A DNA stretch of 45,090 nucleotides, from positions 1 to 45,090 of the IMG/VR virus record IMGVR_UViG_3300037041_001257, one strand, 5' to 3'. The position numbers were made by a program, and so were the translations under genes. Numbering within the stretch: the stretch's first letter is position 1; each line of letters opens with the position of its first letter. Below are positions 1 through 45,090 of the stretch, piece by piece. The notes under the pieces were generated by a model, which worked only from the letters and a program-made list of their open reading frames with translations, did not search any database and had not been told where the DNA came from. Source of the stretch: a virus.

Positions 1-127
1 TTTTAAACCTGCAAATGTAGTATCAGCACTTAAAACACAGGTAGGCGCTTTGCCTGAGACATTCGACTGGAGAACTAAAGTTACACTCTCTCCAATTGAG
101 AATCAAGGGTCCTGTGGAAGTTGTTGG
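1..127. repeat. Left copy of 127-bp exact terminal repeat (circular closure)
   Basis: These bases are identical to positions 44964-45090. The coding frame of the papain-like lipoprotein runs unbroken from the right end into the left end if one copy is removed, so the molecule is circular or circularly permuted with 44,963 unique bases. A length of exactly 127 matches a common maximum k-mer size of de Bruijn assemblers, which makes an assembly overlap more likely than a biological terminal redundancy. Confidence 0.95.
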
Positions 128-1054
128 TCAATGTCATCAGCAGCTACATTTCAAGATGTTTTGCGTGTTAAAGGCGAAATTAGAGACCTATCAGAACAGT
201 ATCTTTTGTCTTGTACAAAACCAGGTGAATGGAATTGTGCTAACGGCGGTTTTTTCGCACACGACATGCATATGGCGCCTAGAGGCGGTGTCGATGCTAA
301 AGATTATCCTTACACTGGTACTGATTCAGCTTGTAAATCAGGTCTAACTTATCATCAGCAAATCGCAAAATGGTCTTATCTTGCAGGCGGTGAAAATCCG
401 AGTGTAGATGAGATTAAAAGTGCCTTGGTACAATATGGCCCGTTATCTGTAGGCGTGGCTGTAGACGATGCTTTTTCAAATTACAAAGGCGGTATTTTTA
501 AAGATACTGGCTATCGTCAAATGAATCATGCTGTGAATCTTGTCGGATGGGGAGTTGACCATTGGATCATGCGTAATTCATGGGGTAACTGGGGAGAATC
601 AGGGTACATGAGAATCGCTTTTGGCGCTAATGGCATCGGTGGATGGGCCAATTTTGTCGAGTATGTTGGAACAGGACCAAATCCAGATCCACAACCAACT
701 CCAGATCCAACACCTCCTCCTCCCCCTCCTCCAGGGCCTGACTGTAAACCACTTCCAATTGCATCTACAGGATTTGGGCCTTCGATTTGGTTGCGTCAAG
801 GTCAAGCAGTTAAAATTGGTATGAAGGCAAGAGTAAATACAACATACAAATGGACAGCCGAGCCAGCTTTTGATGGCGGCGCAGTACCAACTTCAGCGAT
901 GATTAGTTTCAAGCCAGTCGTAACAAAAACGCTGACTATTCACGCAACAAATCCTTGCGGTGAAGCCGTTGCTACAACAAAAGTAAACGTATCAACTAAG
1001 ATGAAAAGTGGCAAAGAGGAGATAACTCTTTATCCAGATGTTACAGTAAAATAG
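1..1054 (+). CDS. Papain-like (C1) cysteine protease lipoprotein, 3' part (gene starts at 44812)
   Basis: Joined across the circular junction, the gene encodes 401 residues. It begins with a lipoprotein signal peptide at 44812 and is read here from base 2. The C1 catalytic set is complete: oxyanion Gln86 and nucleophile Cys92 in [10 protein letters not shown], His227 in MNHAVNLVGWG, and Asn243 in RNSWGNWG. A Pro-rich hinge (about residues 276-297, with seven consecutive prolines) leads to a C-terminal beta-sandwich-like domain of about 100 residues, possibly PKD/Ig-like. Only about 45 residues separate the lipidated Cys from the mature domain, and no ERFNIN-type I29 propeptide is visible, so its latency mechanism is unclear. 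It should sit on the periplasmic face of a membrane or outside the cell. It follows the amidase gene by 45 bases and has its own promoter. The class and catalytic residues are certain; the role (lysis, exclusion, host or prey protein digestion) is inference. Confidence 0.93.
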   Translation, partial: FKPANVVSALKTQVGALPETFDWRTKVTLSPIENQGSCGSCWSMSSAATFQDVLRVKGEIRDLSEQYLLSCTKPGEWNCANGGFFAHDMHMAPRGGVDAKDYPYTGTDSACKSGLTYHQQIAKWSYLAGGENPSVDEIKSALVQYGPLSVGVAVDDAFSNYKGGIFKDTGYRQMNHAVNLVGWGVDHWIMRNSWGNWGESGYMRIAFGANGIGGWANFVEYVGTGPNPDPQPTPDPTPPPPPPPGPDCKPLPIASTGFGPSIWLRQGQAVKIGMKARVNTTYKWTAEPAFDGGAVPTSAMISFKPVVTKTLTIHATNPCGEAVATTKVNVSTKMKSGKEEITLYPDVTVK

Positions 1055-1057
1055 TTT

Positions 1058-1087
1058 TTGGCAATAGGTGACCGTCCCTGTTATAAT
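1058..1087 (+). promoter_or_regulatory. Sigma70-type promoter for first HExxH protease
   Basis: TTGGCA at 1058-1063 is followed after 18 bases by TATAAT at 1082-1087, preceded by TG at 1079-1080 (extended -10). Transcription should start near 1094, about 28 bases before the ATG at 1122. The -10 lies inside the left arm of the hairpin described next. Confidence 0.75.
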
Positions 1088-1121: not shown

Positions 1122-1877
1122 ATGTCAAAAATGCTAATGCTATTTGTGTTATTGTGCTCGTTTAATGCTTATGCTGACCTACCACAAAACGACTTATGGA
1201 AGCAAGATACAGGCTTTGCCGCTAATTTCAGTGAAAAGGAATTTCAAGCGACAATTAAAGAATTACAAACTATGTATGCTCCTATTGTAGCAAGATTAGG
1301 CGGCAAGCTTAATATTCAAGGGGACTGGAACGATTCGACAGTAAACGCTTATGCATCTCAAAGCGGTAAAACTTGGAATGTACAAATGTTTGGTGGTCTT
1401 GCTCGTAGGCCAGAAGTAACCCTAAACGGCTTTAAACTCGTTATCTGTCATGAGCTAGGACATCATGTAGGTGGAGTGCCGTCAAGTAGCTGGGCTTCAT
1501 ATGAAGGTCAAGCTGACTATTATGCTACCCACGTGTGCGGTAAAAAATTGTTCACTGATTACTCTCAAAATGTGAAGCTTTATAAAGAATGCGCTTCATA
1601 TGCTGGTAAAGATCAAGTTGCTTGCTCTCTTAATTTAGATGCGGCGCAATCGCTTGCAAATCTCTTAGCAGCACTTGCTGGAGATGCTCAACCGTCTTAT
1701 GATACATTTGACCCAAGTGAGGTAACAGAGACGCAATCAGAACATCCACAAGCGCAATGTCGTCTTGATACCTATCTAGCTGGTGAGCTATGTAACATGT
1801 CTTGGAATGATCAAGTGATCCCTAGAAATTTAAACGCAGTATGTGACAATCGACCTAAATGCTGGTATGCTAAATAA
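1122..1877 (+). CDS. Secreted HExxH zinc metalloprotease (gluzincin type), copy 1
   Basis: The 251-residue protein starts with a Sec signal peptide (MSKMLMLFVLLCSFNAYA, cleavage about residue 18). The zinc motif is HELGH (110-114), with a second acidic patch EGQAD at 128-132 supplying a likely third ligand, as in gluzincins such as M48 or ImmA-like enzymes. The Cys-containing C-terminus carries CRLDTYLAGELC and ends RPKCWYAK. It is a clear paralogue of the protein at 2280: both share the HE(L/I)GH, EGQADYYATHVC, AQCRLDTY and CWYA blocks. It should act in the periplasm or outside the cell on protein or peptidoglycan-linked peptide; the substrate is unknown. I cannot assign an exact MEROPS family. 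The start is supported by AGGGG six bases upstream. Confidence 0.85.
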   Translation: MSKMLMLFVLLCSFNAYADLPQNDLWKQDTGFAANFSEKEFQATIKELQTMYAPIVARLGGKLNIQGDWNDSTVNAYASQSGKTWNVQMFGGLARRPEVTLNGFKLVICHELGHHVGGVPSSSWASYEGQADYYATHVCGKKLFTDYSQNVKLYKECASYAGKDQVACSLNLDAAQSLANLLAALAGDAQPSYDTFDPSEVTETQSEHPQAQCRLDTYLAGELCNMSWNDQVIPRNLNAVCDNRPKCWYAK

Positions 1878-1888
1878 CATGTTATAAT
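1874..1888 (+). promoter_or_regulatory. Extended -10 promoter overlapped by a 12-bp palindrome
   Basis: TGTTATAAT (1880-1888) repeats the extended -10 seen at 1079-1087. The perfect palindrome ATAACATGTTAT (1874-1885) overlaps it and the stop codon of the upstream gene, so it could be an operator. No convincing -35 hexamer is visible. It would drive the nuclease gene at 1954 and the protease gene at 2280. Confidence 0.5.
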
Positions 1889-1899
1889 TCTTCAGATCG

Positions 1900-1933
1900 T
1901 TCGATCATGGGCTAATACCTGTGGTCGAATTTT
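1900..1933 (+). other. Stem-loop in leader of nuclease gene
   Basis: Twelve consecutive pairs, three of them G-U, join 1900-1911 to 1918-1929 around the loop CTAATA, followed by TTTT. A competing small hairpin, GATCG (1895-1899) with CGATC (1902-1906), shares bases with it. The layout resembles an attenuator or RNA-stability element in the leader from the promoter at about 1883. Confidence 0.45.
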
Positions 1934-1953
1934 AATTAATACAAGGATGTATT

Positions 1954-2268
1954 ATGTTGCATAATGGCAAGATTGTGAACGTAGTCGATGGCGATACGTA
2001 TGATTGCATTGTAGAGTTAGATTTTGAGCTAACAATCAAAATTAGAATCAGATTGTATGGAGTAAATTGCCCTGAGATGGAGCACAAAAACCCCGCTGGA
2101 ATTGCTGCAAAAGAATTCTCACAAAAAATGTTAATGGACAAAAGAGTGATTTTAAACTATTTAAAACATGATTCCTTTGGTCGATGTTTATGTTCAATTT
2201 GGATCGGTGATAAAGACTTCGCAGGGCTACTCTTAAGCGAGGGATTCGCCATTCCTTATGCTGATTAA
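1954..2268 (+). CDS. Staphylococcal-nuclease-like (TNase/SNc) endonuclease
   Basis: A compact 104-residue SNase-fold protein. The N-terminal VVDGDTYDC matches the family calcium-site strand, RIRLYGVNCPEME carries the catalytic Arg and Glu (Arg33, Glu41), and DSFGRCL gives the second catalytic Arg (Arg77). The usual Asp before CPE is Asn here, a difference also seen in some bacterial relatives. No signal peptide is present, so it probably acts in the cytoplasm, unlike the proteases on either side. The RBS AAGGATG lies just upstream of the ATG. The gene is 11 bases from the following protease gene and likely co-transcribed. Possible roles are host DNA degradation or nucleotide scavenging; both are inference. 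Confidence 0.85.
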   Translation: MLHNGKIVNVVDGDTYDCIVELDFELTIKIRIRLYGVNCPEMEHKNPAGIAAKEFSQKMLMDKRVILNYLKHDSFGRCLCSIWIGDKDFAGLLLSEGFAIPYAD

Positions 2269-2279
2269 GAGAGATAAAA

Positions 2280-3092
2280 ATGATATTGGAATGGCTATTT
2301 ATAGCGATTTTTAGCATGTCAAGCATAGCGTTTGCGTCAATACCAGAAAACGAATTAGACAAGTCAGATGATCATCCATGGAATATCTCAGAGAAGGAAT
2401 TCTGGGATATAATCACATTTACATACAATATTTATAAGCCAATATTTGACAACCTTGTTGCTGAGAACGGTAAAGTAAATTGGTGGTTCGTCTCGAATTG
2501 GCAATCTAAGATAGTCAACATTTATGCTAAAAAAGAAAAGGTTCCGTGGAACAAATGGACAATCGAAGTAAACGGAGCATTGGCTCGTCGTGTCGAACTA
2601 AGTAAAGATGGATTTTATCTTGCACTTTGCCATGAAATAGGGCATCTCGTAGGCGGTCATCCTCTCATGGATTACACACAGTATTCAAGCGAAGGACAAG
2701 CTGATTATTATGCTACCCATGTATGCGCTCGCAAGATTTTTGGAGCAATGGAAAAAGCAAAACCGCTCTTAAAAGTAGGTGTAAAGATAGAATTATGTGA
2801 CAAGAATTTTGACACGGTTTTTGATCAAAATGTCTGCTATAGAACAATTCTTGCAGCTAAGAGCCTAGCCGATACAATGTACATTGCAAATAAGCAAACA
2901 CGCTCACCTGAGTTAGATCAACCTGATACGTATAAAGTTAAACTCACATATCAACTTCACACACCAGCGCAATGTCGTCTTGATACTTATATTGCTGGAA
3001 TACTGTGTGATAAATTGTGGGATGATAAGAGAATACCTACAGAACATAATGCTGTGTGTAGGAATAGACCCGCTTGCTGGTATGCGCCTTAG
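2280..3092 (+). CDS. Secreted HExxH zinc metalloprotease (gluzincin type), copy 2
   Basis: A 270-residue paralogue of the protein at 1122. The signal peptide (about residues 1-19, ending SSIAFA) is followed by HEIGH at 118-122, EGQADYYATHVC from 138, AQCRLDTYIAGILC and a C-terminal RPACWYAP. Compared with copy 1 it has an insertion before the CRLDTY block, and sequence outside the shared motifs has diverged strongly, so the duplication is not recent or the copies came separately. The RBS AGAGAG precedes the ATG. Its last codon overlaps the end of the convergent gene at 3089 by four bases. Zinc protease activity is very likely; its target is unknown. Confidence 0.85.
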   Translation: MILEWLFIAIFSMSSIAFASIPENELDKSDDHPWNISEKEFWDIITFTYNIYKPIFDNLVAENGKVNWWFVSNWQSKIVNIYAKKEKVPWNKWTIEVNGALARRVELSKDGFYLALCHEIGHLVGGHPLMDYTQYSSEGQADYYATHVCARKIFGAMEKAKPLLKVGVKIELCDKNFDTVFDQNVCYRTILAAKSLADTMYIANKQTRSPELDQPDTYKVKLTYQLHTPAQCRLDTYIAGILCDKLWDDKRIPTEHNAVCRNRPACWYAP

Positions 3093-3616
3093 CTCTCTTC
3101 AGGAGGCAGAATCTCTTTATCAAGCGTGATATCATCTATATCAACCACATATGTCATGCTCTCTTTTCTCGACACAGAGAACACAATCACCTTGATTTTA
3201 GACAGTGTCACACCTTCAAAAGCAGACAGGGGGATCGTATAGACATCATAAGTTTTCGAGGGATCTACTTTAATTGAGAGACTAGATTTTTGATCTCCAT
3301 CGAATAGAGCAACACCCACAGCATAGGTTCCAAGATCGGTTTTCATCGCAAAAGACAATGTTTTGTACGCTGTGACATCAACTGGATTCCAGTGATTCAG
3401 GACATAGCCAGCCGCTCCCCACCAGCTTGTGTTATTGAGTGTTGCTCTCAAGTGATTTGCAGGTGACAGAGGGGCGATAGTGCTCTCATACAGCGACGAT
3501 GCATTAGAATCCCATGCAACCGATCCGCCAAAAAGAGATGTTTCGCCATTGTAAACAGGATCAGAAAATGAAGTTGTTGATAAGAACAGAATGAAGATTA
3601 GAAGTAGTAAACGCAT
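3089..3616 (-). CDS. Secreted beta-sandwich protein, carbohydrate-binding-like
   Basis: Starting at 3616 rather than the upstream ATG at 3631 places GGGAGA seven bases before the start and gives a clean signal peptide, MRLLLLIFILFLSTTSFS. The mature part of about 157 residues has the look of a galactose-binding-type jelly roll: LSFAMKTD, YTIPLSAF, and the late DIDDITLD strand are typical of CBM/CIA30-like folds. It has no catalytic signature. It should be exported and may bind surface glycans. It converges on the second metalloprotease gene. The fold is inferred from pattern only. Confidence 0.6.
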   Translation of the reverse strand: MRLLLLIFILFLSTTSFSDPVYNGETSLFGGSVAWDSNASSLYESTIAPLSPANHLRATLNNTSWWGAAGYVLNHWNPVDVTAYKTLSFAMKTDLGTYAVGVALFDGDQKSSLSIKVDPSKTYDVYTIPLSAFEGVTLSKIKVIVFSVSRKESMTYVVDIDDITLDKEILPPEES

Positions 3617-5841: not shown

Positions 5842-6477
5842 CTATGGTACGCAAGGAAGTTCAGAGATGATGCTATTGTATGCTCCCGTCGTAGCATCTT
5901 GATCTTTTGCGGGTGTCGTGGGCCAAAACCAAAAGAGATTCAGAGATGAATTTTGACTATCATGAGTGATAGGCTCAATTTCTGTCATTTTCGCCGGACA
6001 TGTTCGCTGTATTCTGACATTACTGAATTTGCTCGTATTTTTGACAATACAGTAAAAACCGTTACGATTGTAAAACTGAAACATCACATTTGAACACTCT
6101 TGACGCAAATGAACGATATTCATGATAGGTATCGCTGATGTCTCTAAATCGCTGATAGCAATGCCTTCAGATCTCCAGCTAGTCGCATCAAGCGTTCGAG
6201 CAACTGTATTAGATGGGACTGAGATGCCAGCTCTCAGAAAAGCATCAAAGCATAAATTTGCGTCTGGGGTGTCGATAAACGTATAGCTCATAGGGTAAAC
6301 ATCTTCACCAGGGGCAGCATACGTAGGTCCTGTGCCGCTAGGTGTGGTCGTGACTGTAGTCGTTGTCGATGTATCAGTAAGAGAGACGGGAGAGGGCACA
6401 GAACGCTTTTTAGGCTGATCAATACCACATGAACTAAAAAACAAACTCATAACTCCAAAAACAATTAAATTCTTCAT
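5842..6477 (-). CDS. Putative lipoprotein
   Basis: 211 residues from the ATG at 6477. The TTG 15 bases further upstream is rejected because AAAGGA lies between the two, at correct spacing for 6477. The lipoprotein signal peptide MKNLIVFGVMSLFFSSCG has a clear lipobox Cys. A Thr/Ser/Pro-rich linker (TSTTTTVTTTPSGTG) leads to a domain of about 150 residues with five further cysteines. Such linkers fit a surface-anchored protein. Possible roles are superinfection exclusion or host surface change, by analogy with other phage lipoproteins only. It is divergently oriented to the late operon and has its own terminator. Confidence 0.7.
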   Translation of the reverse strand: MKNLIVFGVMSLFFSSCGIDQPKKRSVPSPVSLTDTSTTTTVTTTPSGTGPTYAAPGEDVYPMSYTFIDTPDANLCFDAFLRAGISVPSNTVARTLDATSWRSEGIAISDLETSAIPIMNIVHLRQECSNVMFQFYNRNGFYCIVKNTSKFSNVRIQRTCPAKMTEIEPITHDSQNSSLNLFWFWPTTPAKDQDATTGAYNSIISELPCVP

Positions 6478-7400: not shown

Positions 7401-8262
7401 TAATTTAAAAGATTTTGCTGTTTTTATACTTACCAATGGCAGACCAGACAATGTCAAAACATATGCGACATTAGAAAAACATGGATATACAGGCAGAATT
7501 TATTTAATCGTCGATGACCTCGATAAAACAAAAGATCAATATATTGAAAAATACGGTGATAAAGTTGTCATTTTTGATAAAAAACAAATAGCTAAGACAT
7601 TTGATCAAGGAGACAACTTCAATGATATGAGAGCGATCATTTACGCCAGAAATGCATCATTTGAAATAGCTAAGACATTAGGGATAAAATATTTTGTAGA
7701 GTTAGACGATGATTACACAAGCTTTGATTGGCGTTTTAATGACAGGTTTGAATACATCCACGAAACCATGGGTAAACGATTAAATCATGTTTTTGAAGCA
7801 ATATTGAAATTTTTTATAAACTCAAATATTAGTTCAATTGCGCTTGCACAAGGAGGGGATTACATAGGGGGTGCGGGATCGGGTATCTGCTTTTCAAAGG
7901 GATTAATCGGGTTAAAAAGAAAATGCATGAATTCATTTTTTTGCAGCACAGACAGACCTTTTCAATTTGTAGGTCGTGTAAATGAGGACGTCAATACTTA
8001 TACACGAATGGCTAGCACGGGATTATTGATGTTTACGACAAATCAAGTATGCTTAAATCAGATCCAGACACAAGCTAACTCTGGTGGTATGACTGAAATG
8101 TATCTTGATTCTGGTACATACATAAAATCATTTTACTCAGTAATGTATCACCCCTCCTCTGTAACAGTTAAATTGATGGGATTTAAAACAAATCGATTGC
8201 ATCATTCTGTCAACTGGGAACACACAACACCTATGATATTAAGACAGTCTTTAAAGAAATAA
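7384..8262 (+). CDS. TET-associated-type glycosyltransferase (TAGT-like)
   Basis: 292 residues from the ATG at 7384, inside the end of the ParB gene; the longer frame from 7339 would overlap further without a better RBS. The GT-A pattern is visible: FILTNGRPDNVKTYATLEKH, then GRIYLIVDDLDKT, the metal-binding FVELDDDYTSFDWR, and a C-terminal LDSGTYIKSFYSVMYHPSSV followed by RLHHSVNW. I recognise these blocks from the phage family described as TET-associated glycosyltransferases, which add sugars to oxidised 5-methylcytosine and are often near ParB genes. No TET/JBP oxygenase or pyrimidine hydroxymethylase is seen here, so the acceptor is uncertain: host-made or otherwise modified bases, or protein. 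Confidence 0.75.
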   Translation: MQMTISNLKDFAVFILTNGRPDNVKTYATLEKHGYTGRIYLIVDDLDKTKDQYIEKYGDKVVIFDKKQIAKTFDQGDNFNDMRAIIYARNASFEIAKTLGIKYFVELDDDYTSFDWRFNDRFEYIHETMGKRLNHVFEAILKFFINSNISSIALAQGGDYIGGAGSGICFSKGLIGLKRKCMNSFFCSTDRPFQFVGRVNEDVNTYTRMASTGLLMFTTNQVCLNQIQTQANSGGMTEMYLDSGTYIKSFYSVMYHPSSVTVKLMGFKTNRLHHSVNWEHTTPMILRQSLKK

Positions 8263-8282
8263 CAACTGGAATGGAGTAAACA

Positions 8283-8684
8283 ATGTATAAATACAAAACT
8301 AACTCAAAATCAAATAGAGGCAGACCAAAGATTGAAATTGATTGGGAGCATTTTGATAAATTATGTTTCCTTCAATGCACACAATTAGAAATAGCATCGT
8401 TTTTTAGTTGCACAATCGAGACCCTTGAAAATCGTTGTAAAGCTGAAAAAGGCATGAATTATTTAGAGTATTACAAGACAAAAGCAGTAAATGGTAAAAT
8501 ATCTTTACGACGAAAAGCGTTCCAACTTATCGAAAAAGGTAACCCATCTGTAATCATCTTTGCTCTTAAAAATATGGTCGGATGGTCTGATAAAATGGTG
8601 TCAGAATTCAAAGGTGAAGTATCTGAATCAGCTCCCGTAGTCAACTTTATAACCAAAAGCCAAAATGACAAAAAATCAAAATAG
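8283..8684 (+). CDS. Terminase small subunit
   Basis: 133 residues. The order is typical: a basic N-terminus with GRPKIEIDWEHFDKLC, a helix-turn-helix CTQLEIASFFSCTIETLENR, then NPSVIIFALKNMVGWSDKM. It should bind the packaging site on phage DNA and load the large subunit. TGGAATGGAG lies upstream of the ATG. It overlaps the large-subunit gene by 20 bases. Confidence 0.85.
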   Translation: MYKYKTNSKSNRGRPKIEIDWEHFDKLCFLQCTQLEIASFFSCTIETLENRCKAEKGMNYLEYYKTKAVNGKISLRRKAFQLIEKGNPSVIIFALKNMVGWSDKMVSEFKGEVSESAPVVNFITKSQNDKKSK

Positions 8685-9867
8685 CATTATTGTTCCCGAT
8701 GCATTCGCTGATTTGTCAGACGATTATCGATACTACGTATACTATGGTGGACGTGGTTCGAGCAAATCACATAGCATAGCTAGATATCTCATTTGTCAGG
8801 CTCTCAGTAAAACAACTAAAATACTGTGCGGTAGAGAGCTACAAAACTCGATCTTAGAATCCGTTTACTCTCTGCTTAAGGGTATCATATACGAGTACAG
8901 TCTTGAGAAGTGGTTTTACATAAAAAACGCAACAATCGAATGCTCATGTAACGATAGTGTGTTCATTTTCAAGGGACTTGCTCATAATATTGAATCAGTC
9001 AAATCAACTGAAGGCATCGACATATGTTGGATTGAAGAGGCTGACAAGGTATCTCAGAATTCATGGGACACGCTGATACCTACAATACGCAAGCCTAACA
9101 GTAAAATCATCATATCGTTTAACCCTACTCATGAGGATGACCCCGTCTATCAAATGTTTGTTGTTACAGGACAACCAGACATGGTTATCAGAAAAGTAAA
9201 CTATGACGATAACCCATATTTCCCTGAAGTATTGCGTAAAGAGATGTTGCATCTTAAAGCAACCGACTATGAAAAATATCTACACGTATGGGAAGGTGAG
9301 CTAAGAACAGTATCGGACGCACAAGTTTTTAAAGGTAAATATGTAGTAGAGGAGTTTAGTTCTGAGGGTGTTGAAGCATACTATCACGGGATGGACTTTG
9401 GCTTTGCGAATGATCCAAGCACAGTGGTAAGATGCTTTATACGGGATCAGAGGCTCTATATCGATGCTGAGGCATATGGATATCATATCGAGATAAACGA
9501 TCTTGGGAAGTTGATTAGGAAGGCTATAGCTAATAAACACTACAAAATCAAAGCAGATTGCGCTAGGCCAGAGACTATCAGCTATCTCAAGAATGAAGGC
9601 TGGAATATCGAAGGCGCAAAGAAATGGCCTGAATCTGTAGCAGAGGGAATTGAATTTCTAAGAGGATTTGAAAAGATTGTTATTCATCCCTCATGCGTTC
9701 ATGCTATTGAAGAATTTAAACGATATTCATTCAAAATAGATAAACGAACAAATGATATTTTGCCGATTGTGATTGACGACTACAACCATGTCATTGATGC
9801 GGTGCGGTATGCGCTCGATACTCTAATCAAACATAAAAAATCTATATTTGATGAAGGTGTTATGTAA
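8665..9867 (+). CDS. terL: Terminase large subunit
   Basis: 400 residues, PBSX/Terminase_3-type. Walker A is GGRGSSKS (28-35), Walker B is IDICWIEEAD (about 117-126), followed by SFNPTHEDDPVY. The C-terminal nuclease domain starts with the GMDFGFANDP strand and ends with DYNHVIDAVRYALD, supplying the acidic metal ligands. It powers DNA translocation into the prohead and cuts the concatemer. Full length for the family. Confidence 0.95.
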   Translation: MTKNQNSIIVPDAFADLSDDYRYYVYYGGRGSSKSHSIARYLICQALSKTTKILCGRELQNSILESVYSLLKGIIYEYSLEKWFYIKNATIECSCNDSVFIFKGLAHNIESVKSTEGIDICWIEEADKVSQNSWDTLIPTIRKPNSKIIISFNPTHEDDPVYQMFVVTGQPDMVIRKVNYDDNPYFPEVLRKEMLHLKATDYEKYLHVWEGELRTVSDAQVFKGKYVVEEFSSEGVEAYYHGMDFGFANDPSTVVRCFIRDQRLYIDAEAYGYHIEINDLGKLIRKAIANKHYKIKADCARPETISYLKNEGWNIEGAKKWPESVAEGIEFLRGFEKIVIHPSCVHAIEEFKRYSFKIDKRTNDILPIVIDDYNHVIDAVRYALDTLIKHKKSIFDEGVM

Positions 9868-29531: not shown

Positions 29532-29543
29532 TTAGGATGTATA

Positions 29544-35583: not shown

Positions 35584-36633
35584 GTGGATCATTTTAATAA
35601 TATCTATAAATGGGATATTGAACAGCTCCCCCACCGAGACTTAAAAGTAGTCACAATGGTCAGTAACCCGATTCGATTTAAGACACGCTACAACCTCTAT
35701 AGACGCTTTGCAAAGCATATGGAGGATAGTGGTGTCGATCTTATCACAGTAGAGATACAGCAAGGCGAACGTCCATTTGCAGTTACAGACGCTAACAATC
35801 CAAATCACGTACAACTCAGAACATACACAGAGATATGGTTAAAAGAATGCGCTCTTAATTTAGCTGCAAAGCGCCTTTATGAGCTACACCCTGACTGGAA
35901 ATACCTTGCTTGGATTGACGCAGACATTCAGTTTTTAAACCCTGGGTGGGCTGCAGAGGCTCTCTCAATACTTCAGCGTTTTAGAGTGATTCAACTTTGG
36001 TCAACTGCAATCGACCTTGATTACAAAATGAATCCTATTCAGACGATAAAATCATTTGCATGGTGCCATTGGGAATCTCTCAGAAATCCAGAGACTATGG
36101 GTGTATTCGTTAATGGGAAGCATGAGTTTAATAAGGGAATTCCAGACTGGAAAATGTATGCAGCGATAGTAAAACCATTCTGGCATTCAGGCTTCGCATG
36201 GGCAATGAGACGAGAAGTTTACGAGAATTTAGGGGGGTGTTATGATGGCGGTATTTTTGAGACAGGGATTTTAGGATCTGGGGATCATCACATGGCCCTT
36301 GCATTCATAAATGAAGTAGAGAGATCTTTACCAAAAACAATCAATAAACGCTACCTAGATTTGCTGTTAGAATATCAAAATCGCTGTAATAAATTCGTGC
36401 AACGTGAATTGGGCTATATTGACGGTGGTATCACGCATTATTTTCATGGCACAAAGCAAAATAGAGGCTACCGCACACGATGGTCAATCTTAGCTGATAA
36501 TAAATTTGATCCAACATATGACCTTAAACGAGATAAGAATGGACTTTTCACTTTGACGGATCGCAGTATAAAACTACGTGATGATATCAAGCTTTATTTT
36601 GAGAGCCGAGATGAGGATAACCCAAATACTTAG
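35584..36633 (+). CDS. Glycosyltransferase, GT-A-like (phage tail-module type)
   Basis: 349 residues with a GTG start at 35584, preceded by GGGAAGGAT. Core motifs: DLKVVTMVSNPIRFKTRYNL, ECALNLAAKRL, and the DxD-like LAWIDADIQFLNPGW. A His/Gly-rich C-terminal part (GILGSGDHHMALAFI, ITHYFHGTKQNRGY) is typical of this phage glycosyltransferase family. No signal peptide. Likely partner of the next gene. Probable acceptors are virion proteins or a host glycan. Confidence 0.8.
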   Translation: MDHFNNIYKWDIEQLPHRDLKVVTMVSNPIRFKTRYNLYRRFAKHMEDSGVDLITVEIQQGERPFAVTDANNPNHVQLRTYTEIWLKECALNLAAKRLYELHPDWKYLAWIDADIQFLNPGWAAEALSILQRFRVIQLWSTAIDLDYKMNPIQTIKSFAWCHWESLRNPETMGVFVNGKHEFNKGIPDWKMYAAIVKPFWHSGFAWAMRREVYENLGGCYDGGIFETGILGSGDHHMALAFINEVERSLPKTINKRYLDLLLEYQNRCNKFVQRELGYIDGGITHYFHGTKQNRGYRTRWSILADNKFDPTYDLKRDKNGLFTLTDRSIKLRDDIKLYFESRDEDNPNT

Positions 36634-36643
36634 GGCTTAAATA

Positions 36644-37447
36644 ATGAAAAATCAGCAGCAAAGAATCTTAGAAAACAATAGAAGGGTACTTCAGAGAATG
36701 CAAAGTGAGAATGATACACTGATGGTAGTTGAGCAAGATAAGACATGGTTCCCTCCACATCCAATGAAGGAAAAATTCGACCTTACTCGAACTATTGTTG
36801 ATGTGATTATACCAGCTAAAACATGCGGGAAAACGCTCCCCATGATGATAAATTGCATTAGATCATTACGGGAATCTGAAGAAAAGATCCAATTCAATAT
36901 CATCGTGATTGAATCAGGTGATAGCATCATTGAGGTAGGGCAAGATGAGACAATAAAATATCCCAATGATAAATTTTGTTATAATCATGCTTTGAATCTA
37001 GGCCTGGATATCACTTCAAATGATTGGGTCGTACTTGCGAATAATGATCTAGTCTTTAAGCCTGGGTGGATGAATGAGATAATCATTGCTCGAAATTTGC
37101 GAAAAGATATTGAATCATTCTCACCTTGGAACGACATGTGGGACTGGCATTCTAGGTATTATGGCAACATGTATCCCGATGTTATTGAGGGCTATCGTAT
37201 CGGTATTGAGCTAGCTGGATGGTGTATTGTTGCTAGACGAAGGATTTTTGAAAAGGTAAAATTAAGTGAACGTGTCAATTTTTGGTACTCTGACAATGTC
37301 TATGCTGATGATCTAATGAGACATGGAATTAAACATGCGCTTGTAACGAGATCTAAAGTTGACCATATTGTATCACAAACTCATGTCGTATCGGCTGAAG
37401 AATCTGAAGCCTCAAAAGAGGAATATCTGAATAACACGGAGACCTAA
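36644..37447 (+). CDS. Glycosyltransferase family 2-like
   Basis: 267 residues. VDVIIPAKTCGKTLPMMINC, FNIIVIESGD, FCYNHALNLGLD, and the metal site VVLANNDLVFKPGWMNEI are GT2-like. The C-terminal AGWCIVARRRIFEKV and DNVYADDLMRHG complete the usual acceptor-side pattern. N-terminal 45 residues form a basic, Gln-rich helix. It starts 10 bases after the previous glycosyltransferase. Confidence 0.85.
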   Translation: MKNQQQRILENNRRVLQRMQSENDTLMVVEQDKTWFPPHPMKEKFDLTRTIVDVIIPAKTCGKTLPMMINCIRSLRESEEKIQFNIIVIESGDSIIEVGQDETIKYPNDKFCYNHALNLGLDITSNDWVVLANNDLVFKPGWMNEIIIARNLRKDIESFSPWNDMWDWHSRYYGNMYPDVIEGYRIGIELAGWCIVARRRIFEKVKLSERVNFWYSDNVYADDLMRHGIKHALVTRSKVDHIVSQTHVVSAEESEASKEEYLNNTET

Positions 37448-37450
37448 ATT

Positions 37451-37627
37451 ATGATCTTTTTTATGTCGGCAACAATTATAACAATTAGTAGCGCAATTAT
37501 CTTTTTTATCGGTCTAACAATGTATATCCGTACAAGTCATCATTCTAAGAGATTCAAACAAAACAAAAAAAAAATGTACCACTGGGACGGTAAAGGGTAT
37601 TATCAAAAGATACTCAAAAAATTATAG
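37451..37627 (+). CDS. 58-residue membrane protein, holin-like
   Basis: One N-terminal hydrophobic helix (IFFMSATIITISSAIIFFIG, 2-21) is followed by a basic tail rich in Lys (KRFKQNKKKM, then KGYYQKILKKL). The architecture, one or two helices plus a positive tail, fits small holins or antiholins at the end of late operons. The RBS is weak, and the start lies three bases after the upstream stop, so coupling is probable. Confidence 0.55.
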   Translation: MIFFMSATIITISSAIIFFIGLTMYIRTSHHSKRFKQNKKKMYHWDGKGYYQKILKKL

Positions 37628-37637
37628 GCGGTGCAAA

Positions 37638-37865
37638 ATGTTGGACGGGGCAGGGGCAGATTTAATGGCAGCATGTGGATCGATTGTTGCTACCTCAGCC
37701 ACATTGACAGGGATGTTTTATAAGCGAATTCAAAGCAGCGAAAATAAATTTCATTCTGCTTTAGAAGAATTGAATAAGAAGTTGAATCGTATCGATAAAA
37801 ATCTTGCTGTGAATACAGCTTTTATTGATCAAATATTAAACAAAAGGAGAGATGAAAAATGGTAA
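37638..37865 (+). CDS. Small membrane/coiled-coil protein, holin- or Rz-like
   Basis: 75 residues. A hydrophobic N-terminal part (AGADLMAACGSIVATSATLTG, 5-25) is followed by a coiled-coil-like segment (ENKFHSALEELNKKLNRIDK). This matches XhlA-type or i-spanin-like architectures. AGGCGG precedes the ATG. Candidate lysis helper, based on layout only. Confidence 0.55.
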   Translation: MLDGAGADLMAACGSIVATSATLTGMFYKRIQSSENKFHSALEELNKKLNRIDKNLAVNTAFIDQILNKRRDEKW

Positions 37866-38113
37866 ATGAAACTGAAAAACAAGGCATTGATGAGATTTTA
37901 AAAGTGATTGACGTAGCAAAAGGTAACATTTTTTCACTAGCTGCAATTGACTGGGATGTATTCGCAGCACAATGCAAAGATCTTGATAAGGAGGAAGATG
38001 TAGATGTAATCATCGAAGTGGGTAAAGCTGTTATCGAGATTATCGCAATGTTTGGTACAAGTGGGCTGAGTGTAGGAGTAAAGCTGTTATCGAAGGCTTT
38101 GTTTAAAGTATAG
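37859..38113 (+). CDS. Small hypothetical protein with hydrophobic C-terminus
   Basis: 84 residues. The first half is acidic (EQGIDEILKVIDVAKGNIF and KDLDKEEDVDVI), the second half is hydrophobic (AVIEIIAMFGTSGLSVGVKLL). It overlaps the previous gene by seven bases. Last gene of the late operon, before a terminator. Possibly part of the lysis set. Confidence 0.55.
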   Translation: MVNETEKQGIDEILKVIDVAKGNIFSLAAIDWDVFAAQCKDLDKEEDVDVIIEVGKAVIEIIAMFGTSGLSVGVKLLSKALFKV

Positions 38114-40943: not shown

Positions 40944-41189
40944 CTATTTACCTTGTGGATATTGTTCTTTTATCATCGTGTCGATTTGATCGCATGTCTC
41001 AATCACAGTCTCAGTATTCCCGTCAACAAAACCAATCTTAGTTTTTTGCTCTGCATTGTCGATTAAGTTGTCCTGATACCATTGAATCGTATTCGTATTG
41101 ATTCGAATGGGCATCCCAAGAAAACCATGAAGGGTAATGAATGAAGGCAGAGATATGATGATTACAAGATTTTTAGCAAATTGAATCAC
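40944..41189 (-). CDS. Small protein with N-terminal membrane helix (GTG start)
   Basis: 81 residues. Start GTG at 41189, with AGGAG eight bases before. An N-terminal hydrophobic region (FAKNLVIIISLPSFITLHGFLG) is followed by a polar domain. Overlaps the glycosyltransferase gene by 17 bases. It could be a signal-anchored periplasmic protein. Unknown family. Confidence 0.55.
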   Translation of the reverse strand: MIQFAKNLVIIISLPSFITLHGFLGMPIRINTNTIQWYQDNLIDNAEQKTKIGFVDGNTETVIETCDQIDTMIKEQYPQGK

Positions 41190-42207
41190 TTTGCATAGCT
41201 CCTAGTCTTGCGTGGGCTTCTGCTATCACCAGCATGTTAGCGGGTGTCGTAGTGTACTTGTCTTGCTCGGAGAAAAGGCGAGGCGTCCATTTGTTTTTAA
41301 GTGCTTCTAAAGCATATTTTTTCATGCCTTGAAAATCACCCTTGAGCCTTGCGATATAAGCTAGCTCACACCAAGATTCTGACCAGGTCGAATCTATAGT
41401 TAAAAGTTGTTCGCTTAAAGCAATAGCTGTCTCAGTATCACCGATATGCTGTGACCATCTAGCGGCCCTCCAAAAGCAATGAGCTAACTCAACACCCCAT
41501 GCCTGTTCATTGCAGTCAATAGCTCGCCTGATGTATTCACGATACCATTTGATAGCTTCGGGATAATCGCCAATGTCAACATGTTCGTTAGCCCAATAGA
41601 ACATTGATCTAAACGAAGGGTAAATTTCTTTTCTCAGGATCCTTCGGTTTCGCTCACCGCCATGTTCTTGTCCATCGTGCATACCTGGATGATGCTTAAT
41701 CTCAATCGCTGTCTCATTCATGATATTGAGGGACCATGAGAAGTGAATCACTTCATGGACATTTCCGACATACTTGATACCTAGGCCAGTTTTCCACAAT
41801 TTGTAGCTAATGAAAAATGACGTATCGGAATTGTGATATTTGAACGCATAAATATCAGCGGGATTTTCTAATACGTAGGCGCGAAGATTCTCAGGAGCAA
41901 GATAAGTATCATCGGCGTCAATTGATAGGATGTAGTCAACTCCTTCGCTCTCGAGGAGCTTCACATACTGATTCCTAGCTTGGGCAAAATCTTCAAGGCG
42001 TCCTTCACTGTCAGACGCATCAAGATACGTGACGACACGTCCTGGAATTCCAAATTCAGCGATCATGCTTGTTGCAATCTCAACTGTGTTGTCTGTCGAT
42101 CCCGTGTCAACAATACACACTGAATCAACATGAGGCAGAAATGATCTTAAGCAGCGAGGTAAATCATGCGCTTCGTTTCGAACAATCAAGCCCAGTCCTA
42201 TTTTCAT
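41173..42207 (-). CDS. GT2 glycosyltransferase fused to TPR repeats
   Basis: 344 residues from the ATG at 42207, preceded by AGGA; the longer frame from 42273 lies in the HTH gene. MKIGLGLIVRNEAHDLPRCL, VCIVDTGSTDNTVEIA, and the metal site ILSIDADDTYLAPENL define a GT2 domain (about 1-220). TPR-like helices follow (YPEAIKWYREYIRRAI, DTETAIALSEQLLTI, LKGDFQGMKKYALEALK). TPR-linked GT2 enzymes act on proteins or LPS in bacteria. It is in the early, not late, operon, which separates it from the other four glycosyltransferases. Confidence 0.85.
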   Translation of the reverse strand: MKIGLGLIVRNEAHDLPRCLRSFLPHVDSVCIVDTGSTDNTVEIATSMIAEFGIPGRVVTYLDASDSEGRLEDFAQARNQYVKLLESEGVDYILSIDADDTYLAPENLRAYVLENPADIYAFKYHNSDTSFFISYKLWKTGLGIKYVGNVHEVIHFSWSLNIMNETAIEIKHHPGMHDGQEHGGERNRRILRKEIYPSFRSMFYWANEHVDIGDYPEAIKWYREYIRRAIDCNEQAWGVELAHCFWRAARWSQHIGDTETAIALSEQLLTIDSTWSESWCELAYIARLKGDFQGMKKYALEALKNKWTPRLFSEQDKYTTTPANMLVIAEAHARLGAMQSDSIC

Positions 42208-42469
42208 ATTCAATCCTATCTTCAAGGTCCCATATTCTTTTACCCGAAGTCCGACGTGGTATGGGATATCCACGGGCCTCTATTTCGTGAATTCTTAATC
42301 GCAGCGTTCTTAATGGGATTACAATTTTCTTTGACAATTTAAAGCGATTGTTTCCACACTCGATAAGCTTGGCCAAGACAAAATGGTATATCATGTCTGT
42401 TAGAGTTACTTCAGGCAGCTCTAAGCATTTTTCTAAAACCACTTTGTTGTAGCCAAAAGGTGTGCTCAT
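42164..42469 (-). CDS. Fis-like HTH protein 2
   Basis: 101 residues. FVLAKLIECGNNRFKLSKKIVIPLRTLRLRIHEIEARGYPIP matches the HTH_8/Fis pattern also seen in the protein at 38598. The C-terminus is basic (RRTSGKRIW). Overlaps the initiator-like gene by four bases and the glycosyltransferase gene by 44. Probably regulatory or accessory in replication. Confidence 0.65.
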   Translation of the reverse strand: MSTPFGYNKVVLEKCLELPEVTLTDMIYHFVLAKLIECGNNRFKLSKKIVIPLRTLRLRIHEIEARGYPIPRRTSGKRIWDLEDRIEYENRTGLDCSKRSA

Positions 42470-43353
42470 TTTACTTCTTCATCAAAGACGTGTTGTAATG
42501 CGTCATTGAACGCTTGTTTTGTATGTTTAATAGACCACTTTGCAGTCCCGCATAAATCTCTTTCCATTACATAATCGAAAAGCCAATCAATAGCCTTTAA
42601 TGCTACATCACCATGCTTGCTTATAAAATGATCAGTTATCGACAATATGTCATTTCTTTTGACATAAGATCTTAATTCAGGATTAGGGGTAAAAATGCTC
42701 ACCATTTTATTATGCTGAGGGGTAACTATTGGTTTAACTGTCTGAAGAGGCTGAAGGGGATTTGATTGCTTTTCAATGGGTATTTTATTTGAGTTTTCCT
42801 CTGGAACAAAAGAATCATCTAAATTATTAATAATGTGTGTGTCTTTTTGTCGTAGGCTTGGACTACGTCCTACACACGATTTTTGGTCTTTATTATTTTT
42901 TTTCTTCTTGGAGGACTGAATTTCCTCCGGGATAGAAGAAGGAAGATAACTAGTCGTCTCCCGACTATCTACAACTTGACACATAGTCGTCTCCCGACTA
43001 TCTACAACTTGACATGCTTTGCTCTCAACATAGCATTGAAATAGGTAATCGCTTATCGAATATGTGTTTTCAATTTTGAAACCAAATTCATCAAAATTGT
43101 TTTCGATCATAAGATATGATTTGTTTGAGAGAGATTTGATTGCTGATTTGATCGCTGATGATTTAAATTTGATCGCTGTAGAAATTTGATTCACACTGAC
43201 AGTGACTTTTGAATGATGAAAATCTTTAAAATTAAGTTGAGAGCCTAAATAAATTAAAAGAGATGTCTCAACTCCTGTTAGATCTTTAATCGTATAAATT
43301 GCTTCCAAACATCGGCCACCATGAAACGGATCAATTATTTTAGATTTTAACAA
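42466..43353 (-). CDS. Replication initiator-like protein (winged helix, TTG start)
   Basis: 295 residues. The start is TTG at 43353 with AAGGA eight bases upstream. The N-terminal part (1-110) looks like a winged helix-turn-helix: LTGVETSLLIYLGSQLNF, VSVNQISTAIKFKSSAIKSAIKSLSNKSYLMI. A polar linker of about 110 residues includes an 11-residue duplication (CQVVDSRETT). The C-terminal domain (about 215-295) resembles the DnaT/DnaD-like part of phage replication proteins. Its centre encodes iterons that may be the origin. First gene of the early operon. Confidence 0.65.
   Translation of the reverse strand: MLKSKIIDPFHGGRCLEAIYTIKDLTGVETSLLIYLGSQLNFKDFHHSKVTVSVNQISTAIKFKSSAIKSAIKSLSNKSYLMIENNFDEFGFKIENTYSISDYLFQCYVESKACQVVDSRETTMCQVVDSRETTSYLPSSIPEEIQSSKKKKNNKDQKSCVGRSPSLRQKDTHIINNLDDSFVPEENSNKIPIEKQSNPLQPLQTVKPIVTPQHNKMVSIFTPNPELRSYVKRNDILSITDHFISKHGDVALKAIDWLFDYVMERDLCGTAKWSIKHTKQAFNDALQHVFDEEVK
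42951..43014. repeat. Two 31-bp iterons with internal palindromes (candidate origin)
   Basis: The 31 bases starting at 42951 recur exactly at 42984 (33-base period). Each contains the perfect inverted repeat TAGTCG-TCTCC-CGACTA (42951-42967 and 42984-43000). A poly-T/AT-rich tract lies at 42886-42906. The iterons are inside the linker-coding part of the replication-protein gene, as the lambda origin lies within O. Confidence 0.65.
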
Positions 43354-44344: not shown

Positions 44345-44766
44345 ACTGGAAAGACTTTTCAGGGCGCGAATTCGCAAGAGAGATCCGTCTAATCAACAAG
44401 CTTATCTTGCATTGCTCGGATAGTGATAACCCTCTTCACGACGATATATCTGTCATTAAGCAATGGCATCTCGAACGTGGGTTTATAGATGTGGGCTATC
44501 ATTTTTTCATAAAGAAGGATGGTACGATTCAAATTGGTAGACCTATATACATGATTGGCGCTCATTGTGCCGGTCAAAATCTTAGCTCTTTAGGAATATG
44601 TCTCTCAGGTAAAACAGCATTCACCGCAAAGCAATTCAAAGCAGCTAAACAACTTTGCATTAGCTTAAGAGATAACTACAAAATAAAAGATATTAATGTT
44701 TATCCACACAATCATTTCAATAAGAGCAAGACGTGCCCTAATTTTAATTTAGACAAGCTTCTCTGA
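44335..44766 (+). CDS. N-acetylmuramoyl-L-alanine amidase, T7-lysozyme-like (endolysin)
   Basis: 143 residues with a GTG start at 44335, eight bases after GGGAG; the TTG at 44320 is rejected. Zinc ligands: His26 in LILHCSDS, His125 in VYPHNHF and Cys134 in KTCPNF. Tyr55 in VGYHFFI and Lys132 match the catalytic helper residues of T7 lysozyme. It cuts the amide between MurNAc and L-Ala in peptidoglycan. No signal peptide, so a holin is needed. Followed directly by the C1 lipoprotein gene. Confidence 0.92.
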   Translation: MHINWKDFSGREFAREIRLINKLILHCSDSDNPLHDDISVIKQWHLERGFIDVGYHFFIKKDGTIQIGRPIYMIGAHCAGQNLSSLGICLSGKTAFTAKQFKAAKQLCISLRDNYKIKDINVYPHNHFNKSKTCPNFNLDKLL

Positions 44767-44777
44767 TATGGTACAAT
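44750..44777 (+). promoter_or_regulatory. Promoter for the C1 protease lipoprotein
   Basis: TAGACA (44750-44755), 16-base spacer, TGG then TACAAT (44772-44777), an extended -10. The start would fall near 44784, about 28 bases before the ATG. RBS AGGGAG at 44800-44805 area. This gives the cargo gene expression independent of the amidase promoter. Confidence 0.6.
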
Positions 44778-44811: not shown

Positions 44812-45090
44812 ATGAAGTGGTTTATGGCTATTTTTCTAAGCATTATGATGTTTGGCTGTAGTACAGCAAAAAAGGAAAACTTCTCAACAACACCCGTCTA
44901 TTCAGACACCGTTAAAGATTCAAGCGGCAATGTTTATCACACTGGCTTAAAAGTACCAGTGAATTTTAAACCTGCAAATGTAGTATCAGCACTTAAAACA
45001 CAGGTAGGCGCTTTGCCTGAGACATTCGACTGGAGAACTAAAGTTACACTCTCTCCAATTGAGAATCAAGGGTCCTGTGGAAGTTGTTGG
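44812..45090 (+). CDS. Papain-like (C1) cysteine protease lipoprotein, 5' part (continues at 1)
   Basis: Start ATG at 44812. The signal peptide [16 protein letters not shown] ends in a lipobox with Cys16 as the lipid-attachment residue. A polar spacer ([20 protein letters not shown] and onward) takes the place of a full inhibitory propeptide. The mature domain begins near LPETFDWR (residues 67-74). The last 127 bases repeat the first 127 of the window. The remainder of the gene, with His and Asn of the catalytic triad, is at 128-1054. Confidence 0.93.
44964..45090. repeat. Right copy of 127-bp exact terminal repeat
   Basis: Identical to 1-127. See the left copy for interpretation. Confidence 0.95.

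Follow-up and report, generated by a model that had tools for sequence, protein, structure and literature searches.

A conserved predicted protease cassette beside the amidase gene of a phage related to Bdellovibrio phage phi1422

Genes and signals at the joined ends of the genome

The virus record IMGVR_UViG_3300037041_001257 (45,090 bases, analysed over its whole length and called the window here) carries a 127-nt direct repeat at its ends (1-127 = 44964-45090), and the genome was therefore read as circular, with the first and last genes joined. Across this junction, a reading frame that opens at 44812 runs in frame over the record ends to 1054 and encodes a C1 lipoprotein of 401 aa in total. 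The initial annotation had placed a C1 lipoprotein beside the lysis gene, and this holds for the complete gene: the protein possesses a lipobox and scores 164.7 bits against PF00112 (cut-off 20.7). Its closest solved sequences are ficin and cathepsin K/L/S, and its AlphaFold model has a pLDDT of 84. A close type of C1 was found in 12 distinct phages, referred to as cassette phages in the following (the window, L089, L002, L004, L005, L006, L007, L100, L148, L157, L158 and L186; L090 is the same as L089 and was counted once). The catalytic set Gln86, Cys92, His227 and Asn243 (401-aa numbering) is intact in all 12, and so is the lipobox; the Cys-Ser pair at the lipobox of the window recurs in the other cassette phages. 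The features of the locus are collected in Table 1.

Table 1. Predicted genes and signals around the joined ends of the window.
Feature	Position	Strand	Characteristics
Amidase_2 endolysin, directly upstream of C1	44320..44766	+	PF01510 E 7e-14; phrog_822 lysis/amidase E 3e-36
Extended -10 sigma-70-like promoter, 34 nt before the C1 start	44750..44777	+	TAGACA-16-TACAAT with TG
C1 (papain-family) lipoprotein, N-terminal part	44812..45090	+	signal peptide, lipobox MMFGC-S, propeptide-like stretch
C1 lipoprotein, rest	2..1054	+	papain domain, Pro-rich linker, C-terminal beta-sandwich domain
Extended -10 promoter, 34 nt before Z1	1058..1087	+	TTGGCA-18-TATAAT with TG; best site in the window
Z1, exported M48-like gluzincin (predicted)	1122..1877	+	251 aa; HELGH residues 110-114 at 1449-1463; EGQADYYATHVC at 1503-1538
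Terminator-like hairpin after Z1	1899..1930	+	13-pair stem, T-rich tail
SNase-fold nuclease without signal peptide	1954..2268	+	PF00565 46.1 bits vs 21; phrog_452 endonuclease E 2e-19
Z2, second exported gluzincin (predicted)	2280..3092	+	270 aa; HEIGH residues 118-122 at 2631-2645; EGQADYYATHVC at 2691-2726
Exported CBM30-like protein, convergent neighbour of Z2	3089..3616	-	PF21582 E 0.005, below cut-off

Two putative zinc proteases, Z1 and Z2, flank the SNase gene, as the initial annotation had described. Both reading frames, the HELGH and HEIGH motifs, EGQADYYATHVC, the Sec-like N-termini and the CWYA ends were recovered. Z1 and Z2 are paralogues (41% identity over 265 columns, E 2e-57), a 44-nt repeat (84% identical) spans the EGQADYYATHVC codons of both, and both end in RPxCWYA. 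The cleavage motifs, read from the sequence, predict processing between AYA and D in Z1 and between AFA and S in Z2. The nearest relative of Z1 is found in L089 (56%), which also holds the nearest relative of the window SNase (63%). Z2 is closest to L006 among full-length relatives (63%) and reaches 78% to L108 over 120 residues; in L108, this relative adjoins the same CBM-like gene as in the window. Thus, Z2 looks like an addition by recombination. The CBM30-like gene is also present in L089, L108 and L158.

The SNase had been counted as part of an extracytoplasmic set. This view is not supported: in none of the aligned cassette phages does the SNase have a signal peptide, so that the window SNase would not itself be exported by Sec. 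The catalytic residues of staphylococcal nuclease are Asp21, Arg35, Asp40, Thr41, Glu43 and Arg87. At the equivalent positions Asp, Arg, Glu and Arg are kept, and Asp40-Thr41 is replaced by Asn-Cys in the window (VNCPE) and by Asp-Ala in most relatives. At 7479-8795, L003 encodes an SNase with a signal peptide beside a zincin, about 3 kb from a lysozyme gene and in a gene set that looks T4-like; a distant C1 gene lies elsewhere in this record, possibly an independent assembly of the same parts. In L007, an exported, Cys-rich protein of 298 aa (8782-9678) is inserted between zincin and SNase.

A TG-extended promoter site with a score of 9-12 of 13 sits 23-39 nt before C1 in 11 of the 12 cassette phages, and no comparable site was found before their amidase genes. 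Six sites in the window score at least 11 of 13; apart from that of C1, those on the plus strand lie before Z1, at about 5454, at about 5686 and at 29540. Given its own predicted promoter, C1 need not be expressed with the late lysis genes. The presence of a promoter before C1 and the lack of one before the amidase are the strongest evidence that the cassette may be expressed apart from the endolysin. The terminator call after Z1 is weak, since the number of terminator-like hairpins (four) equals that expected from shuffled sequences (4.0).

A family of predicted gluzincins typical of Bdellovibrionota

In an alignment of 46 members of the zincin family, both His, the Glu of EGQAD and its Asp (H110, H114, E128 and D132) are invariant, and the catalytic Glu (E111) is kept in 45, L100 being the exception. 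Eight cysteines are invariant or nearly invariant across the 46 homologues, which fits a secreted, disulfide-bonded enzyme. One match of the zincin scan, L001, was rejected, as it is a portal protein merely containing EGQADYY. The HExxH plus ExxxD signature of M48 is present, but the cut-off of the M48 profile was not reached: against PF01435 (Peptidase M48; cut-off 20.3 bits), Z1 scored 18.3 and Z2 12.9 bits, and sub-threshold Pfam M48 matches were obtained for 19 of the 46 members (best E 2e-5). No solved relative of the family was found by sequence.

The AlphaFold model of Z1 (pLDDT 92.1, pTM 0.86) has HExxH on helix 101-116 and EGQAD at the start of helix 128-144. The putative zinc ligands named in the initial annotation are therefore predicted to lie on two helices in gluzincin order. 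Foldseek searches with this model returned partial matches to the gluzincins MATCAP, ZMPSTE24, M61, Spartan and HtpX, none of them at E <= 0.001 (best PDB E 0.07, TM about 0.3); the match to ZMPSTE24 had a probability of 0.89 over 76 columns only. In the viral library, a phage 'Peptidase M48' was matched with a probability of 0.97. Because the M48 scores stay below the cut-off and the fold matches are partial, we call its members predicted M48-like gluzincins without assigning them to M48.

The scan of cellular genomes yielded 236 zincin relatives among the candidates. The best 80 of these belong mostly to Bdellovibrionota; some come from Elusimicrobiota, and a few carry the labels of other groups. 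In cells, the genes often stand in tandem, two to five in a row. In drawn samples, the family was present in 125 of 192 genomes of Bdellovibrionota vs 2 of 299 of Pseudomonadota, where one of the two positives was a centre genome picked because it had a zincin match. The 50,697 cultured-phage records gave no zincin match. A single origin of the phage zincins was rejected (AU p 0.025), and five changes between phage and cell were counted on a quick tree with open branches and long rows. In this tree, the phage zincins do not form one clade, and several acquisitions are likely. In pairs with unsaturated dS, dN/dS is 0.07-0.14, indicating purifying selection.

Zincins also occur in other phage contexts. 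In the phage group L101-L107, the gene directly follows a major-capsid-like gene in the longer loci and not an endolysin; in L101, L102, L105, L106 and L107 it adjoins a gene of about 85 aa with a hydrophobic stretch. In L008 and L103-L107, it lies among head and tail genes. In L093 (5426-6676), the zincin directly follows the amidase; it has a Pro-rich linker and, at its C-terminus, an additional domain with Cys, which appears CAP-like by eye and has no Pfam match. The zincin of L091 (3298-4104) is split into two open reading frames next to an SNase, probably by a frameshift due to sequencing or decay.

Conservation of the cassette and kinship of the phage

The first phage survey was seeded on zincins and hence biased; two more were seeded on C1 and on the amidase. 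Absence of co-occurrence in related phages had been set beforehand as the sign of random cargo, and co-occurrence was found in 12 distinct phages. C1 is present in all 12; the amidase lies directly upstream of it in 11 (not detected in L158), the SNase is present in 11 (missing in L186) and a zincin in 11 (missing in L157). Only the window and L186 have two zincins, and the second one of L186 is short, without the usual C-terminus. In L100 and L158, the zincin is inactivated, with HQIGH in place of HExxH, and L158 has also lost EGQAD; a zincin is thus lost or inactivated in 3 of the 12 phages. More distant C1 phages have no zincin. Among whole zincin-bearing virus records, C1 and SNase were each found in 10 of 28, and in L093 the amidase adjoins a zincin although C1 and SNase are absent. 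Accordingly, the emphasis that the initial annotation had laid on a pair of zincins does not hold. Two zincins are exceptional, and the zincin can be missing (one phage) or inactivated (two phages). The conserved core is therefore C1, together with amidase and SNase, with the zincin as an almost constant, occasionally decaying partner.

A host-derived cassette had also been proposed. The gene families are indeed typical of the host group, but not the cassette as a unit: at none of the 80 cellular zincin loci does a neighbouring gene encode a C1, SNase or amidase. The C1 homologues sampled in Bdellovibrionota are weaker and sparser (32 of 192 genomes). On this comparison of gene neighbourhoods, the cassette is best described as a phage assembly of host-type genes and not as a transplanted host cassette. 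L089 shares the virion module of the window, and over the length of their contigs L093 and L108 do too. L002, L004, L005, L006, L007 and L100 have the replication and lysis side in common with the window, but not the virion genes, and among the other complete-block phages compared only L089 has the window's virion genes. The block was thus kept while virion genes were swapped, which argues that it is inherited apart from capsid and tail.

In Bdellovibrio phage phi1422 (NC_019525), 23 window ORFs from TerL to the tail fibre genes have collinear homologues (TerL 47% identity, E 8e-115; portal E 3e-107), and the window phage is therefore regarded as phi1422-related and contractile-tailed (a myovirus); a first impression of a siphovirus was dropped when baseplate genes were seen in this comparison. 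The host of the window phage is probably one of the Bdellovibrionota, as the kinship to phi1422 and the host-type genes support without proving. The initial annotation had pointed to the same group, and both this kinship and the distribution of the zincin family support it. A scan of 369 Bdellovibrionota genomes gave no CRISPR-spacer or prophage match to the window; with 40 kb of the window, mainly the zincin regions were matched, plus short or weak matches. The one match from a TerL search for a host or prophage (41%) lay on a short MAG contig. Among the scanned ORFs, none was recognised as an integrase or repressor, and lysogeny of the window phage is thus unsupported.

Several other window genes deserve mention. 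A lipoprotein of 211 aa (5842-6477, minus strand) is 61-67% identical in L002, L004 and L007, occurs in other cassette phages as well and had no match in cultured phages by tblastn; it is conserved as well as the cassette and is perhaps functionally linked to it. At least two glycosyltransferase genes (36644-37447 and 41173-42273, minus strand), with a possible third at 35584, suggest modification of surface glycans. Three small genes (58, 75 and 84 aa), holin or spanin candidates with no family match, follow the tail and glycosyltransferase genes at 37451-38113; two have a transmembrane stretch, and several cassette phages keep the 75- and 84-aa genes. Neither the small transmembrane genes at 37451, 37638 and 37859 nor the zincin neighbours in L094, L095, L098, L102, L105 and L109 matched a holin family, and no holin is claimed therefore.

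A possible role in opening the host envelope

We tentatively favour the view that the cassette is an envelope-directed proteolytic module which helps the amidase to open the outer layers of the host and perhaps also prey remnants. After export, the C1 lipoprotein would be anchored in a membrane, most likely the outer one according to the +2 rule (Ser after the lipid Cys), and its C-terminal beta-sandwich may hold the substrate. The zincins would be secreted into the periplasm, with disulfides to stabilise them. Shortly before the amidase cuts the wall, or after it has done so, these proteases might cleave the envelope proteins on which the cohesion of the outer layers depends, and so do by proteolysis what spanins do mechanically; where the predator host lives in the periplasm of its prey, they possibly also loosen the prey remnants around it. 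The SNase, without a signal peptide, would cut host nucleic acid in the cytoplasm or after lysis. We infer the outer-membrane location, substrates, timing and lysis role from the genes and their context.

Several observations point in this direction. The amidase precedes C1 directly in 11 of 12 cassette phages and stands beside the zincin even in L093. The C1 catalytic residues and lipobox, the zincin His, His, Glu and Asp and the confident fold model count in its favour, as do the purifying selection and the retention of the block across two different virion modules. The collinearity with phi1422 adds to this picture. In addition, there is a precedent for an exported protease that lyses cells: Bd2269, a Sec-exported protease of Bdellovibrio bacteriovorus, accelerates exit from prey and lyses E. 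coli cells from the inside (PMC12546842). Against the envelope-directed role stand the sigma-70-like promoter of C1 itself, the loss or inactivation of zincins in 3 of 12 cassette phages and the position of the zincin after the major capsid gene in L101-L107.

A promoter separate from the endolysin keeps exclusion and host takeover alive as explanations. The main rival is receptor shaving or superinfection exclusion, in which C1 in the outer membrane, aided by the secreted zincins, would cleave surface proteins that serve the phage as receptor, and so block a second infection and keep progeny off debris. Promoters before C1 (11/12 phages) and before Z1 are the architecture of autonomously expressed accessory genes, C1 is a lipoprotein with Ser at +2, and it is strongly conserved while other parts vary. 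However, known exclusion lipoproteins are small and non-enzymatic, such as Llp of phage T5, which acts in exclusion by binding, and the constant place beside amidase and SNase is left unexplained. We regard exclusion as rather unlikely. Quite unlikely, in our opinion, is a function as nutrient cargo to the benefit of the host, where predation-type hydrolases digest prey or debris and feed both host and phage replication. Such a function would suit a zincin family so characteristic of Bdellovibrionota, with its tandem arrays of two to five genes, the promoters of C1 and Z1, and the fact that predators secrete proteases and nucleases late in prey (PMC12546842). It accords poorly with an SNase without signal peptide and with the lack of a recognised integrase or repressor, and it leaves the endolysin linkage unexplained.

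It is highly improbable that the products are virion-associated or entry enzymes digesting the surface during infection, as the zincins among head and tail genes in L008 and L103-L107 might suggest, for Sec and lipoprotein signals lead them out of the cytoplasm, where virions assemble, and the window cassette lies outside the structural module. Neutral cargo captured by recombination, to which the loss, inactivation and duplication of zincins and the different nearest relatives of Z1 and Z2 could be ascribed, is the least probable and is already disfavoured by an order conserved in 12 phages with two different virion modules, the dN/dS of 0.07-0.14 and the C1 active site intact in 12/12.

Returning to the envelope-directed module, the small lipoproteins of phage lysis loci are of interest. 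In a pattern scan, no spanin-size small lipoprotein was found beside the amidase in cassette phages and no small lipoprotein in the window, but such a gene lies close to the amidase in 12 of the 68 amidase relatives without the cassette. The contrast (0 of about 10 cassette phages vs 12/68) is not statistically significant; it is suggestive and fits a cassette that replaces spanins. A small lipoprotein gene also lies near the endolysin of phi1422. The start annotated for phi1422 gp72 (L131 43106-43435), at 43196, seems to lie too far downstream: with a start further upstream, the protein gains a lipoprotein signal (LIATILSGC) and its gene overlaps gp71, a layout like that of an o-spanin. It is tempting to speculate, though we consider it unlikely, that the outer-membrane step of lysis in Bdellovibrionota phages is proteolytic, with an anchored papain-like lipoprotein and secreted gluzincins replacing spanins and also digesting the prey envelope for virion escape. 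The host cell of such a phage may itself sit inside a prey cell, and none of the papers found describes how phages escape from predatory bacteria. A conserved enzymatic module at the lysis locus is a concrete, testable candidate for this step and suggests a protease route through the outer membrane. Furthermore, the cassette gives a starting point for finding the function of a large gluzincin family, so far uncharacterised, which is a hallmark of Bdellovibrionota.

Searches of the open literature (open-licence papers) turned up no such phage module. Its parts are of known kinds or their distant relatives; the combination and the link to phages of predatory bacteria appear new. phi1422 differs from the window in having no zincin or C1 gene, and has the small lipoprotein gene instead. 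Like the spanins (Rz/Rz1), C1 is encoded as a lipoprotein beside the endolysin and is proposed to act at the outer membrane; unlike two-component spanins, it is a putative 401-aa protease and not a small structural lipoprotein, and it lacks an adjoining partner with transmembrane and coiled-coil parts. With exclusion lipoproteins of the Llp/Cor type, C1 shares a phage origin, a predicted outer-membrane lipid anchor and its own promoter; these, however, are small binders and not proteases. The PF00112 score and the Gln-Cys-His-Asn set connect C1 with the papain/cathepsin family C1A, from which it departs by its bacterial-type lipoprotein signal, Pro-rich linker, C-terminal beta-sandwich and place in a phage lysis locus. 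The zincins resemble M48 members (HtpX, ZMPSTE24, BepA) and other gluzincins (MATCAP, M61) in having E(x3)D on a helix that comes after the HExxH helix, but, unlike M48 members, they are predicted to be soluble and secreted, with a Cys-rich C-terminus (CRLDTY...RPxCW). Finally, the cassette proteases are predicted to be exported, like the Sec-exported Bd2269, which, unlike the cassette genes, is a cellular gene of the predator (PMC12546842).
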